Shown here piece after piece: positions 48,704-53,000 of a stretch of DNA of 64,000 bases. Below the pieces are notes generated by a model that saw nothing but the letters and a program-made list of their open reading frames with translations, did no database searches and had not been told where the DNA came from. Origin of the DNA: Cyanobacteriota bacterium (lineage in GTDB: Bacteria > Acidobacteriota > Vicinamibacteria > Vicinamibacterales > UBA2999); the NCBI GenBank assembly GCA_019752015.1, contig JAIEMQ010000020.1, forward strand, positions 1 through 64,000, in the 5' to 3' direction. A program made the translations under genes and the position numbers. The first letter of the stretch is position 1. Every line of letters starts with the position of its first letter.

Positions 48704-50554
48704 TCATACGGAAGGCTTGGCGCTTTCGGCAAGAAGATCCTCGAGCATCTGCAACAGCACGTCGGGGTTCACGGGTTTTGCGAGGTGCTCACGGTAACCG
48801 GCATTGAGCGCTTTCTCGCGATCGGCGCGTCCCGCATAGGCAGTCAGCGCCACGCTGACGTCGGGCATCGCGGGTCCCAGTCGATCGCGCAACAGTGTCA
48901 TCAACGTGTAGCCGTCCTGTCCGGGCATTGCAATGTCGCTGACCAGCGCGTCGAAGCGATGGCCGTCGATGGCGCGCAACGCCTCGGCGACCGATCGCGC
49001 GCCCACCGGTATTGCGCCCGCCATTGTCAACGTCGATTCGAGGAGCTCGAGCGTGTCCTGATCGTCTTCGACCACCAGCACGGTGGCCTGCGTCAGTGAA
49101 GCGACTCGCGGCCGCGACGTGGACGCGGATGTCGCCGGCGACGGACGCCGCACCGGCAGCGTGACCGTCAACGTCGCGCCCTTGCCGGGTCCATCGCTGA
49201 AGACGGTCACCGATCCACCGTGCATCTCCGTCAGCCGCCGCACGATCGTCAAGCCAATGCCGAGCCCGCCGTGCGTCCTCGTGCTCGCCGCGTCGGCCTG
49301 GCGGAAGGGCTCGAACATGAACGGAATGAATTGCGGCTCGATGCCGGCGCCGGTGTCGCGGACTTCGATGGTGTCGTGGTCCCCGTCGCGGCGCAGCGCC
49401 ACCGTGACGGTGCCGTGCGACGGTGTGAAGCGGACCGCATTGCTGATCAGGTTCCACAACACCTGCTGAAGACGATCGGGATCGCCCATCGTGGGCAGCG
49501 GCACGGGGCAGACACACTCCAGTGTCACCTGCCGGGCATCGGCCGCCGGACGGCACGCGTCGATCGCATTGCTCACGACCGTGGTCAGATCGATCTCCCG
49601 GATATCCAGCAGCAGCTTGCCGGTCGTGATGCGCGACACGTCGAGCAGGTCCTGGACCAGCCGGGCCTGCGCATGGGCGTTGCGATCGATGCGATCGAGC
49701 GCGTGCTTGACTTCCTCGGCCGGCAGCTGGCCGCGGCGCAGCAGGTGCACCCAGCCGACGATGGCGTTGAGCGGCGTGCGCAGCTCGTGCGAGAGCGTCG
49801 CGAGGAATTCGTCTTTCAACCGGTTCGCCTGCTGCTCGCGATCGAGCGCCTCGGCGCGCTCGCGCTGCGACGCCTGGATCTCGTCGAGCATGCGATTGAA
49901 GGCCTGGACCAGCACCCCGATCTCATCCTGGCTGGGATTGGCCGCGCGGATCGAATAATCGCCGCGATCGGCGATCTCCCGCGCCGTCGACGCCAGGCGC
50001 GCCACGGGCTTCTCGACCATGCCGCGCAGCAGCGTCGACAACAGGAACGACACCAGCAGTCCCGTCACCAGGATCGCGCCGACCGCGGTCGCCTGCGTCC
50101 GGATGCGCGCGCGATGACCGTCGAGATCGACGCCGATGTACAGCAGCGCGCCGCGATCGCGGCCGCGTTCGAGCTGCTGCGTGACGAACATGCGATTCTC
50201 CGCGAGCTGCATGCCCGGCTGCGTGGTCTCCGGGCACACATCGATCGGATTGCGGAACGAGCGCCACGCAAACAGTCTGCCGCCGGGGAGATACAAGCAG
50301 GCAATCTGCGTGTGCGGATGCAGCTCGAGCATCTCGAGCGTCTCGCCGGCGGCATCAGGATCCAGGAACGTCACCGCCGCCGCGGTGTTCTCCAGCACCA
50401 GCTGCGCCTCGGTGGCGAGGTCGGACTGCATGTCGGCGCGATAGCGGTAGAAATCCCACACCACGAACGCCATACTGGCGAGCAGCAGCACCACCGCGCT
50501 GGCGGTCATCAGCATCGCGGTCAGCTTCTGGCGGATCGACAGCCGCTTCAGCAT
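48704..50554 (-). CDS. Hybrid histidine kinase with CHASE-type sensor
   Basis: A 616-residue membrane kinase. Helices near 11-34 and 156-177 flank a periplasmic CHASE8-like domain (QSDLATEAQLVLENTAAAVTF, HPHTQIACLYLPGGRLFA). A HAMP domain follows, then HisKA with His256 ([14 protein letters not shown]), HATPase (NLISNAVRFTP, DTGAGIEP, GGLGIGLTIV) and a C-terminal receiver (VVEDDQDTLELL, phospho-Asp in LVSDIAMPGQDGY). It shares one base with the YfiR gene (TGATG). TonB receptor, YfiR and CHASE-kinase together form a known kind of receptor-relay operon. Confidence 0.92.
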   Translation of the reverse strand: MLKRLSIRQKLTAMLMTASAVVLLLASMAFVVWDFYRYRADMQSDLATEAQLVLENTAAAVTFLDPDAAGETLEMLELHPHTQIACLYLPGGRLFAWRSFRNPIDVCPETTQPGMQLAENRMFVTQQLERGRDRGALLYIGVDLDGHRARIRTQATAVGAILVTGLLVSFLLSTLLRGMVEKPVARLASTAREIADRGDYSIRAANPSQDEIGVLVQAFNRMLDEIQASQRERAEALDREQQANRLKDEFLATLSHELRTPLNAIVGWVHLLRRGQLPAEEVKHALDRIDRNAHAQARLVQDLLDVSRITTGKLLLDIREIDLTTVVSNAIDACRPAADARQVTLECVCPVPLPTMGDPDRLQQVLWNLISNAVRFTPSHGTVTVALRRDGDHDTIEVRDTGAGIEPQFIPFMFEPFRQADAASTRTHGGLGIGLTIVRRLTEMHGGSVTVFSDGPGKGATLTVTLPVRRPSPATSASTSRPRVASLTQATVLVVEDDQDTLELLESTLTMAGAIPVGARSVAEALRAIDGHRFDALVSDIAMPGQDGYTLMTLLRDRLGPAMPDVSVALTAYAGRADREKALNAGYREHLAKPVNPDVLLQMLEDLLAESAKPSV

Positions 50555-51102: not shown

Positions 51103-53000
51103 GTCGAGCGCAGCGTGACGGTCCTCTGGAACACCTGCGGCGGCGTGCCGCCGCGGAACTCCAGGTGGCTGCGATTGAGCAGGTTGTTGCCGACCACGGC
51201 GACGTCCCAGCCCGGCCGCACGCGATAACCCACGCGGCCGTCGATTTCGGCATACCCATCGACCGCCGGCGCCGGCAGCGCGCCGACATAACGGTAGAAC
51301 GCGTCGACCTCCAGACGCGGCCCGGCATTGATGTGCGACCTCAATTTGAACAGGTGGCGCGGATCGTTGCCTTCGGACGCGCCGCCGGTCCGATCCGTGC
51401 TGCCCGGATCGAACGTCACGTGTTTCCAGAAACGGGTGTAACCGCCGCTGACTTGCCACCAGGCCGCGAGTTGCGCGGTCGAGGTGATCTCAACCCCTCG
51501 CGTGACGGCATTCATCATGTTCATCAGCCGGATCGGGATTGGCGGGGAGGGCACTTCCTGGCTCCGCAAGTCGTCATAGCGGTTGTTGTACGCCGCAATG
51601 TCGACGTTCAGCCGTTGTCCGAGCCGCGTCCGGTAGCCAGCCTCGTAGGCGATGACCGATTCGGATCGAAAGTCAGTGGTCCCGGTCAGTGCAAGCAGCG
51701 GGGTGTTCGGCACCCGGAAGCGCAAATCGGTATCGAAGCGCGTCGGCACCCGAACGGCTCGCGACACCGACGCCCAGACCGTTTGCCTGGGGCGCGTCCA
51801 GCGCGCGGACACCGTCGGCTGCAACTCCGCGCCGGTGAATTCGTTGAACTCGAGTTTCGATCCGGCGGTGACGAACAGTCCCCGGCCCGCATCCACCTGC
51901 GCTTGTGCGAACACGTTGGCGCGGTGGGAGACGCGCTCGCGCGGCTCGAAGAAGAAGCCCGGGCCATCGCCAAGATCGTCCCCTCGATAATTGCGGTAGC
52001 CGCCGCCGAACACCATTACCATCCGGCGCCGCGTGCGTTGGTGCTGGACGTCGACATCGAGCGTCTGCAGGAGTCCGCGATACTGCACGGGGACGCGCCG
52101 GTAAAAATAATCGTAATAGGCCTGGACGCGGGTCTCGCCGCCCGAGCCGCTGCGACGGGTCCAGCGCGCGAGCAGGTTGGCGCCGCGCCAGGTGATCGAC
52201 CGATCGACGTTCACGCCCAGTGCCGTGTCTCCCGCGAACACATCGCCTTGCAGCACGGCGAAGTTCCTGCCCGCGCGATCGGATTCGATCCGGAATCCAG
52301 CCTGGCCGAAGTCATGGCCGTTCCCGGCGCTGCCACCGGCGAGCAAGGTCGCAGCCTCCTCGGCCCGCACCTTGCCATAGACGCGGTAGGAGCCGGCCGC
52401 ACCGAACCGCCCGCCGTGGCGGATCGCGAGCGGCCCGGCCGTGTCAGTGCCGACGGCGGCGTTGACGAACGTGCCGCGCGTGTCCGCGGCGTTTTTGGTA
52501 ATGACGTGGATGACGCCGTTGACGGCATTGGCGCCCCACAGGGTGCCGCCCGGTCCGCGCACCACTTCGATGCGCTCGATGTCCGGGACGATCAAATCCT
52601 GCGCCTCCCAGAACACTCCGGCAAACACCGGTGAATAGACCGTGCGGCCATCGATCATCACGAGCAACTTGTTGGCGGTGGTGATGTTGAAGCCGCGCAC
52701 GCTGATCGCATAGCCGGGGCCGGAGACCCGCGCGACGTGCATGGTCTCGGCGAGGCGCAACGCCTCCGGCAAGGTCATCACGCCAAGCCGGCGCAAGTCG
52801 TCGGCCGTGATCACGGTCACGGCGGCCGCCACCCGGTCGAGTTGCTCGGAACGGCGCCCTGAACCAGTGATGTCCGTCGCCGCCAGCTCCTCGATGGAGA
52901 GGCGTTTGAGCTCCGCTAATTGTGACGGCGATGGCGTTTGCGCCGCGGCGGCGCTCGCCGACAGCTCGGCGCCAAGAATCAGGAGGAGGATCAGTCGCAT
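51090..53000 (-). CDS. TonB-dependent receptor of the YfiR-kinase operon
   Basis: A 636-residue outer-membrane receptor. A signal peptide (RLILLLILGAELSASAAAAQ) leads to a TonB-box-like segment (LSIEELAATDITGSGRRSE) and the plug domain (VAAAVTVITADDLRRLGVM, LLVMIDGRTVYSPVFAGVFW, RIEVVRGPGGTLWGANAVNG). The 22-strand barrel ends TVTLRSTWRF with C-terminal Phe. ATG 53000 is chosen because a strong RBS (AGGAGGAGGAT region on the complement) and signal follow; Met 53042 would add 14 residues. It probably senses or imports the signal processed by YfiR and the kinase. Confidence 0.93.
   Translation of the reverse strand: MRLILLLILGAELSASAAAAQTPSPSQLAELKRLSIEELAATDITGSGRRSEQLDRVAAAVTVITADDLRRLGVMTLPEALRLAETMHVARVSGPGYAISVRGFNITTANKLLVMIDGRTVYSPVFAGVFWEAQDLIVPDIERIEVVRGPGGTLWGANAVNGVIHVITKNAADTRGTFVNAAVGTDTAGPLAIRHGGRFGAAGSYRVYGKVRAEEAATLLAGGSAGNGHDFGQAGFRIESDRAGRNFAVLQGDVFAGDTALGVNVDRSITWRGANLLARWTRRSGSGGETRVQAYYDYFYRRVPVQYRGLLQTLDVDVQHQRTRRRMVMVFGGGYRNYRGDDLGDGPGFFFEPRERVSHRANVFAQAQVDAGRGLFVTAGSKLEFNEFTGAELQPTVSARWTRPRQTVWASVSRAVRVPTRFDTDLRFRVPNTPLLALTGTTDFRSESVIAYEAGYRTRLGQRLNVDIAAYNNRYDDLRSQEVPSPPIPIRLMNMMNAVTRGVEITSTAQLAAWWQVSGGYTRFWKHVTFDPGSTDRTGGASEGNDPRHLFKLRSHINAGPRLEVDAFYRYVGALPAPAVDGYAEIDGRVGYRVRPGWDVAVVGNNLLNRSHLEFRGGTPPQVFQRTVTLRSTWRF

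Follow-up and report, generated by a model that had tools for sequence, protein, structure and literature searches.

Can a receptor in the outer membrane report its state to a kinase in the inner membrane by way of a soluble periplasmic protein? The question is raised by three overlapping genes, encoding a TonB-dependent receptor (TBDR), a YfiR-like protein and a hybrid histidine kinase, on the reverse strand of a 64,000-nt stretch of an acidobacterial genome (GTDB lineage; assembly GCA_019752015.1, contig JAIEMQ010000020.1), the whole of which was analysed and is called the window below. We conclude that this cassette is a receptor-fed variant of a YfiR core module that has already been named at the family level, and that it is real and conserved and probably works as a relay. 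An element in front of the TonB box of the receptor, LSLEEL, is the new and testable part of it.

Gene order and domains of the cassette

The first gene (51090..53000, minus strand) encodes a TBDR of 636 aa with a signal peptide, an N-terminal element, a plug and a barrel (Pfam E-values of 3.1e-17 for Plug and 2.2e-25 for the barrel). Its reading frame runs from an ATG at 53000 to the stop at 51090, and there is an in-frame GTG at 53042. The second gene (50554..51102, minus strand; ATG at 51102, stop at 50554) encodes a YfiR/HmsC-like periplasmic protein of 182 aa with a signal peptide-like N-terminus and a DUF4154 domain (Pfam, E 4.6e-38). The third gene (48704..50554, minus strand; ATG at 50554, stop at 48704) codes for a hybrid histidine kinase of 616 aa, in which a CHASE8 domain between two transmembrane (TM) segments is followed by HAMP, HisKA, HATPase and receiver (REC) domains. 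The CHASE8 match covers profile positions 2-66 of 102 and scores 40.4 bits against a Pfam cut-off of 27 (E 3.6e-10). The receptor stop and the YfiR start overlap by 13 nt, and the YfiR and kinase genes by 1 nt (TGATG). An earlier note, made from the sequence of this locus, had described three overlapping genes for a receptor, YfiR and a sensor kinase with its own receiver, which the open reading frames (ORFs), the Pfam domains and the overlaps bear out; its label “CHASE” needs correction to CHASE8.

The H-, N- and G-boxes of the kinase and the Asp, Thr and Lys motifs of its receiver were all found, so that the kinase looks active as far as intact motifs can tell. A terminator-like hairpin (53063..53097, minus strand; −27.7 kcal/mol, z −6.0), followed by U5, stands 5′ of the cassette, between it and the upstream CsbD/BON genes. 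Because this hairpin is strong, the three genes are probably a single transcription unit that is separate from CsbD/BON. The hairpin, the stem of which is broken by a bulged base, was not listed by a consensus terminator scanner, and a consensus scan found no promoter at the cassette.

Co-occurrence of receptor, YfiR and CHASE8 protein

The window genome (5.9 Mb, 82 contigs) has a single DUF4154 and a single CHASE8 match, which adjoin each other, as well as 36 TBDR-barrel and 17 GGDEF matches. From the TBDR density, the chance expectation of a TBDR within 4.5 kb of any given gene is about 5% in this genome, and other genomes may be denser.

DUF4154 was detected in 67 of 297 genomes of the phylum; the four further genomes listed for the same genus had no match. 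All 79 strong DUF4154 places of the phylum (E below 1e-20, the window included) were surveyed, and three of 17 weaker places were counted apart. Neighbours were scored with purpose-built profiles, and distances were taken from midpoint to midpoint, with a limit of 4.5 kb (7.5 kb for REC-GGDEF). A TBDR was found at 63 of the 79 places (on the same strand at 56), a CHASE8 protein at 72, and both at 56; seven places are without CHASE8. For a wider set, a YfiR alignment was compared with one genome per species (84,980 species), which yielded at least 554 relatives. The best 80 of these, i.e. the most similar ones and not a random sample, have a TBDR in 73 cases, a CHASE8 protein in 75 and both in 69, and share at least three loci (L129, L163, and L164) with the phylum set. 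According to their titles, the records cover, among others, Acidobacteria, Verrucomicrobia, Ignavibacteriae, Armatimonadota, Nitrospirae, Deltaproteobacteria/Desulfobacterales, Phycisphaerales, Latescibacterota, Lentisphaerae, Bacteroidetes, Caldithrix, Gemmatimonadetes, and Stagnimonas, which we take to be a gammaproteobacterium. The neighbourhood survey that the earlier note had proposed thus finds the three families together far above the TBDR expectation of about 5%, and the relay idea, which hung on this co-occurrence, survives.

Six plasmid records contain YfiR, five of which were inspected. Sphingobium indicum B90A pSRL1 has the order TBDR-YfiR-kinase with an identical 13-nt overlap and a second overlap of 4 nt; the kinases of this plasmid and of another Sphingobium are CHASE8-HisKA-HATPase-REC proteins like the one in the window, with no HAMP match listed. 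In Pseudoalteromonas pPBSW1, TBDR and YfiR are followed by a CHASE8-HAMP-GGDEF-EAL protein. CHASE8-GGDEF proteins were also found at three of the 79 places in the phylum and at two of the best 80 relatives. The receptor-YfiR-CHASE8 input recurs, and its output varies between kinase, GGDEF and GGDEF-EAL. One further Pseudoalteromonas plasmid has an IS30 transposase just 5′ of YfiR and no receptor in its incomplete gene table, and one plasmid record has no annotated genes at the YfiR site.

Several loci of the surveys have a deviating layout. Two Pseudoalteromonas plasmids (L240, L242) carry an IS30 transposase adjacent to the YfiR cassette or in its vicinity. At four places (L036, L037, L043, and L079), YfiR is directly 5′ of the receptor and has no neighbouring CHASE8 protein; all four genomes hold extra copies of YfiR. 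One genome (G115) has four YfiR places (L081, L083, L093, and L103), and the profile of the receptor N-terminus matches it 21 times. In Candidatus Manganitrophus (L148), the receptor is split into three ORFs and a kinase in four fragments lies opposite to it, for which decay or sequence errors are possible reasons.

Relationship to the YfiBNR system and to named families

Sequence comparison shows that the YfiR-CHASE8 half of the cassette is a homologue of the YfiR-YfiN pair, which has been studied by experiment. The periplasmic domain of YfiN/DgcN belongs to the CHASE8 family, and the TM-CHASE8-TM-HAMP part of E. coli DgcN (YfiN) aligned over its full length to the cassette-kinase profile (79.9 bits). 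E. coli YfiR scored 40 bits with the cassette YfiR profile, and the YfiR of the window matched that of P. aeruginosa (PDB sequence) with an E-value of 0.007. According to Malone et al. 2012, the PAS domain of YfiN is bound by YfiR at an AAVVF patch, and the YfiR side includes F162 and L183 (PMC3375315; here and below, the cited articles are represented by excerpts). In the alignment, the counterpart of this motif is AAVTF (aa 59-63 of the kinase; 50366..50380, minus strand). The YfiR-binding Phe is present in 44 of 44 aligned kinases and a relaxed AAVVF-type motif in 35 of them, while F and L at the positions equivalent to F162 and L183 occur in 62 of 82 YfiR sequences each and are both kept in the window. 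The window contains DUF4154, a TM-CHASE8-TM-HAMP partner and an AAVVF-type motif, three features of the YfiR-YfiN[PAS] core module, in which YfiR also binds and represses its transmembrane partner.

The cassette resembles the YfiBNR system of Pseudomonas and E. coli (YfiN is also named TpbB or DgcN) in that YfiR and a CHASE8-HAMP transmembrane protein are encoded in a tight overlapping order and the Phe motif for YfiR binding is kept. In contrast, it has a TBDR where YfiBNR has the OmpA-like lipoprotein YfiB, and its output is HisKA-HATPase-REC, whereas that of YfiN is GGDEF. In addition, cysteines 145 and 152 of P. aeruginosa YfiR are without counterpart in the alignment with the window YfiR. 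A YfiB-type OmpA-like gene was not matched near the cassette, with an OmpA profile that had only three matches overall. A structure model of the CHASE8 region had a mean pLDDT of 93; its fold was dropped as evidence for membership, the three PDB matches with E ≤0.001 all being integrative models and the rest weak (several of them sensor/PAS).

The cassette is not unknown, since its families are already named in NCBIfam. The receptor narrowly reaches the cut-off of NF053590 (TOL_0244 family; 650.4 bits, cut-off 645), as does YfiR that of NF053591 (TOL_0243 family; 127.1 bits, cut-off 125), and the kinase just misses that of NF053592 (HK_near_YfiR_like; 183.1 bits, cut-off 194). The entries name the families and are silent on mechanism. 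Of 60 aligned linked receptors, 26 reach E 1e-193 with NF053590, so that the linked receptors are broader than this family; for YfiR, 20 of 27 reach E 2.3e-36 with NF053591.

The pairing of YfiR with a kinase has been known since 2012, when divergent YfiR-YfiN systems were described that have lost YfiB and have kinase, GGDEF-EAL or HPT outputs, among them a hybrid kinase in Thauera and, in Fig. S5, a system of an acidobacterium (PMC3375315). They are like the cassette in the kinase outputs and the missing YfiB, and differ from it in that the excerpts name no TonB receptor as input. At the level of search listings and excerpts, a description of a receptor-YfiR-kinase relay, or of a receptor as YfiR input, was not found in the open-licence literature; an A. 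baumannii study mentions yfiR and, in the excerpt, no TonB (PMC12691633).

The receptor and its N-terminal element

The YfiR-linked receptors have a common element in front of the plug, with the consensus DLxxLSLEELMNxEVTSVSK; the version of the window receptor is ELKRLSIEELAATDITGS. Profile, alignment and an AlphaFold2 (AF2) model locate the feature at 52860..52913 (minus strand), where ELKRLSIEEL (aa 30-39) is followed by a segment at the position of the TonB box (aa ~41-47). In the AF2 model of the receptor, which has a mean pLDDT of 90.4, there is a short helix at residues 36-40 and a strand at 43-45, with pLDDT values of 60 and 74 for the respective ten-residue blocks. A phmmer match to BtuB, read with the BtuB residue numbering, places the strand at the TonB box.

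Apart from Plug and barrel, no Pfam domain was found in the window receptor, and a FecA-type N-terminal signalling domain is absent. In FecA/FpvA-type transducers, the N-terminal periplasmic part of the receptor reaches the inner membrane with its signal via a partner in the periplasm. The route proposed below for the cassette is alike in this succession of an N-terminal receptor part, a periplasmic partner and the inner membrane. It differs from that of the FecA/FpvA-type transducers, which act with FecR-type anti-sigma factors, in that a short helix (in the model) takes the place of a signalling domain, the partner is the soluble YfiR and the target is a kinase.

The nearest solved structures to the receptor model are BtuB/Cir/FepA-like at ~16% identity, which is too distant for inferring a substrate from the fold. 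As to an RNA switch that could point to the substrate, there was no Rfam match at the gathering threshold in the window or in 10 of 18 related loci. TOL_0244 of Thalassolituus oleivorans, which names the receptor family matched by the window TBDR, was sevenfold up on the n-C28 alkane compared with Tween 80 and has 40.3% similarity with OmpS (PMC6304351). OmpS of Alcanivorax dieselolei has been cited as a receptor for the detection of alkanes (PMC5174103). By analogy, alkane sensing by the window receptor is a lead only.

Association of the element with YfiR linkage

A profile of the 20-residue element was trained on half of the linked receptors and scored on the other half, with a split that ignores phylogeny. 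Scores of at least 8 bits were obtained for 112 of 121 held-out linked receptors and for none of 29 unlinked Plug proteins of the window genome, which all stayed below 2 bits; these 29 were sampled from the 35 other receptors of the genome and were unselected for the element. Regular-expression matches to the element in three receptors of the same genome (L194, L197, and L208) fell within the plug and were discarded on visual inspection.

A 49-column profile of the receptor N-terminus had some match in 146 of the 297 genomes, and matches starting at column 7 or before were taken to cover the element. Among the matches listed (to about E 7e-6), 73 cover the element, and 58 of these are at most 6.5 kb from DUF4154. 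They come from 49 genomes, 47 of which have DUF4154 (2x2 table 47, 2, 20, 228). Among 61 tallied plug-proximal-only matches of the same list, nine are near DUF4154, which is present in 24 of their 40 genomes.

A FastTree tree was calculated on plug and barrel of 81 linked receptors, eight unlinked receptors with the element and 29 without it. With the deep branches taken at face value, the linked receptors form no single clade. A fully supported unlinked group without the element (L248, L249, L251, L254, and L257) nests in a clade of 20 linked, five unlinked receptors without and one with the element (support 0.99). Of 14 path-disjoint pairs of a linked and an unlinked receptor, 12 have the higher element score on the linked side (sign test 0.013). 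With the threshold at 8 bits, the element is confined to the linked receptor in seven pairs and to the unlinked one in none, and is present in both in five and in neither in two. The pair test supports an association of the element with linkage, on unlinked receptors that were selected. The element is also kept in four YfiR-receptor pairs with neither a CHASE8 protein nor a contig end close by (L036, L037, L078, and L079).

Of the receptors that have the element but no linked YfiR, one adjoins a CHASE8 ORF, and YfiR was detected neither between the two nor next to them (L230:4548-8614); for another, the stretch runs to the contig end (L224).

Proposed mechanism and alternatives

On balance, we think it probable that the cassette is a YfiR-type envelope relay, with a TBDR in place of YfiB and a hybrid kinase in place of the YfiN cyclase. 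By homology, periplasmic YfiR would bind the CHASE8 domain via the AAVTF patch and set the activity of the kinase. In the known system, the N-terminal segment of YfiB inserts F57/M59 into a hydrophobic pocket of YfiR (PMC4887326, PMC4655355), and YfiB binds the C-terminal surface of P. aeruginosa YfiR, which is also thought to bind YfiN (PMC4655355). The simplest transfer from YfiBNR would be that the N-terminal element of the receptor plays the part of this YfiB segment and is exposed or hidden by ligand and TonB. Ligand binding or TonB engagement would free the N-terminal segment of the receptor, i.e. the LSIEEL helix beside the TonB box, and the exposed segment might then capture or release YfiR, so that receptor occupancy would be reported to the kinase. 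Docking, ligand, signal polarity and output regulator are what we infer in this scheme.

A more general version is possible, and in our judgement it falls somewhat short of probable: LSLEEL may be a YfiR-docking element, and the TonB/ligand state may decide between retention of YfiR at the outer membrane and its action on the CHASE8 protein. This would be a second general signalling route of TBDRs, with the same input coupled, across many phyla, to a kinase, a diguanylate cyclase or a GGDEF-EAL protein.

Several observations weigh against a receptor-driven relay of this kind. Nine of the 121 held-out linked receptors score below 8 bits, and 20 of the 67 DUF4154 genomes are without a listed match to the element. 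Conversely, the eight unlinked receptors with the element in the tree are joined by one at a contig end (L237). One of the element-bearing receptors (L231) is from a genome without detected DUF4154 (G198), with no contig break; it lies beside two Pfam-less proteins and a HAMP-PAS kinase (L231:4385-11315), and perhaps another protein replaces YfiR there. The unlinked receptors of the tree and the pair test were mostly chosen by a match to the element or the lack of one, so that their proportions are not rates. With profiles trained on linked receptors, the element could merely mark receptor lineages that travel with YfiR. No TBDR is nearby at 16 of the 79 YfiR places in the phylum (two of these, L041 and L049, have one slightly beyond the limit). 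In pairwise alignment, the window YfiR has G where P. aeruginosa YfiR has the pocket residue I169, and the AF2 confidence over the element is moderate.

The most serious alternative is that the receptor is a transporter only, that the imported ligand binds YfiR and that ligand-bound YfiR switches the kinase, in which case the element would be a feature of TonB interaction or of lineage. The pocket that receives F57 of YfiB weakly takes up vitamin B6 or L-Trp in P. aeruginosa YfiR, with affinities that are only ten-millimolar (PMC4887326), and the YfiR fold resembles a periplasmic ligand-binding domain (PMC4655355), with a likeness to one lobe of a periplasmic binding protein. The location of all three genes in one probable operon also fits this explanation; the tracking of YfiR by the receptor element is left unexplained by it, and we regard it as unlikely. 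Direct sensing of an imported substrate, which the earlier note had suggested for the locus, is one of two live mechanisms.

Less credible still, and quite improbable in our view, is a sensing of envelope or redox stress by YfiR together with the kinase, a role that has been suggested for P. aeruginosa YfiR; the receptor would then be no input and would be co-transcribed as a client or target. The YfiR places without a nearby TBDR would fit this, as would the two cysteines equivalent to C71 and C110, both of which are kept in the window. Against it, the pair is complete in only a minority of the family (23 of 82 sequences), and the element mostly stays while the receptor sequences at the locus vary widely. 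Chance adjacency, or a mere co-location of the three genes, retains a negligible probability, since it is refuted by the survey counts of receptor and CHASE8 protein together (56 of 79 and 69 of 80).

Output of the kinase

Under the YfiR-type relay, and as inferred from relatives, the signal would pass from the kinase to its own receiver, then to an Hpt protein and to a regulator encoded elsewhere, which is possibly a REC-PAS-GGDEF-EAL protein and would hence act on c-di-GMP. In the window, no response regulator adjoins the cassette kinase. The earlier note was right for the window that the output regulator is not adjacent, but some relatives do have a REC-GGDEF(-EAL) regulator within 7.5 kb, at five of the 79 places and at 14 of the best 80. 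The output is likely encoded outside the locus. Hpt had six matches in the window genome, none of which is on the contig of the window.

We compared 20 REC-GGDEF ORFs from cassette loci with 16 of the 17 GGDEF matches of the window genome (one on contig C17 was left out). For the regulators of six loci (L142, L143, L149, L075, L072, and L098), the best match was a protein on contig C7 (L275:1370-3646), with 644-762 bits; the remaining 14 matched this or another protein of the genome best, with 148-601 bits. The C7 protein has the domain order REC-PAS-GGDEF-EAL and sits behind a kinase of its own and a single receiver. Because of these adjoining partners, it is a candidate only for the output regulator.

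Neighbouring genes in the window

The next gene downstream, on the same strand at a distance of 142 nt from the cassette kinase, encodes a second histidine kinase (47350-48561, minus strand), with HisKA and HATPase as the only domains over the cut-off. It could be cotranscribed with the cassette. Further genes on the plus strand encode a huge kinase (54083-59863), the 1926 aa ORF of which has 9-10 tandem HAMP units, GAF, HisKA, HATPase and three receivers, and an adjacent pair of PmbA/TldD-type metallopeptidases (43433-46487). The latter pair is followed by a PLD-like protein (46512-47363).

Implications

A widespread receptor-YfiR-kinase cassette with its receptor element would give a testable answer to the question of how bacteria that have no FecA-type transducers perceive the substrates imported by their outer-membrane receptors. 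It would also account for the input of the many YfiR systems without YfiB. If the docking role of LSLEEL is true, sequence alone could predict from this element which receptors signal. In Acidobacteriota, Verrucomicrobia, and further groups that have been little studied, the cassette would link nutrient receptors to an output by c-di-GMP or by a phosphorelay.

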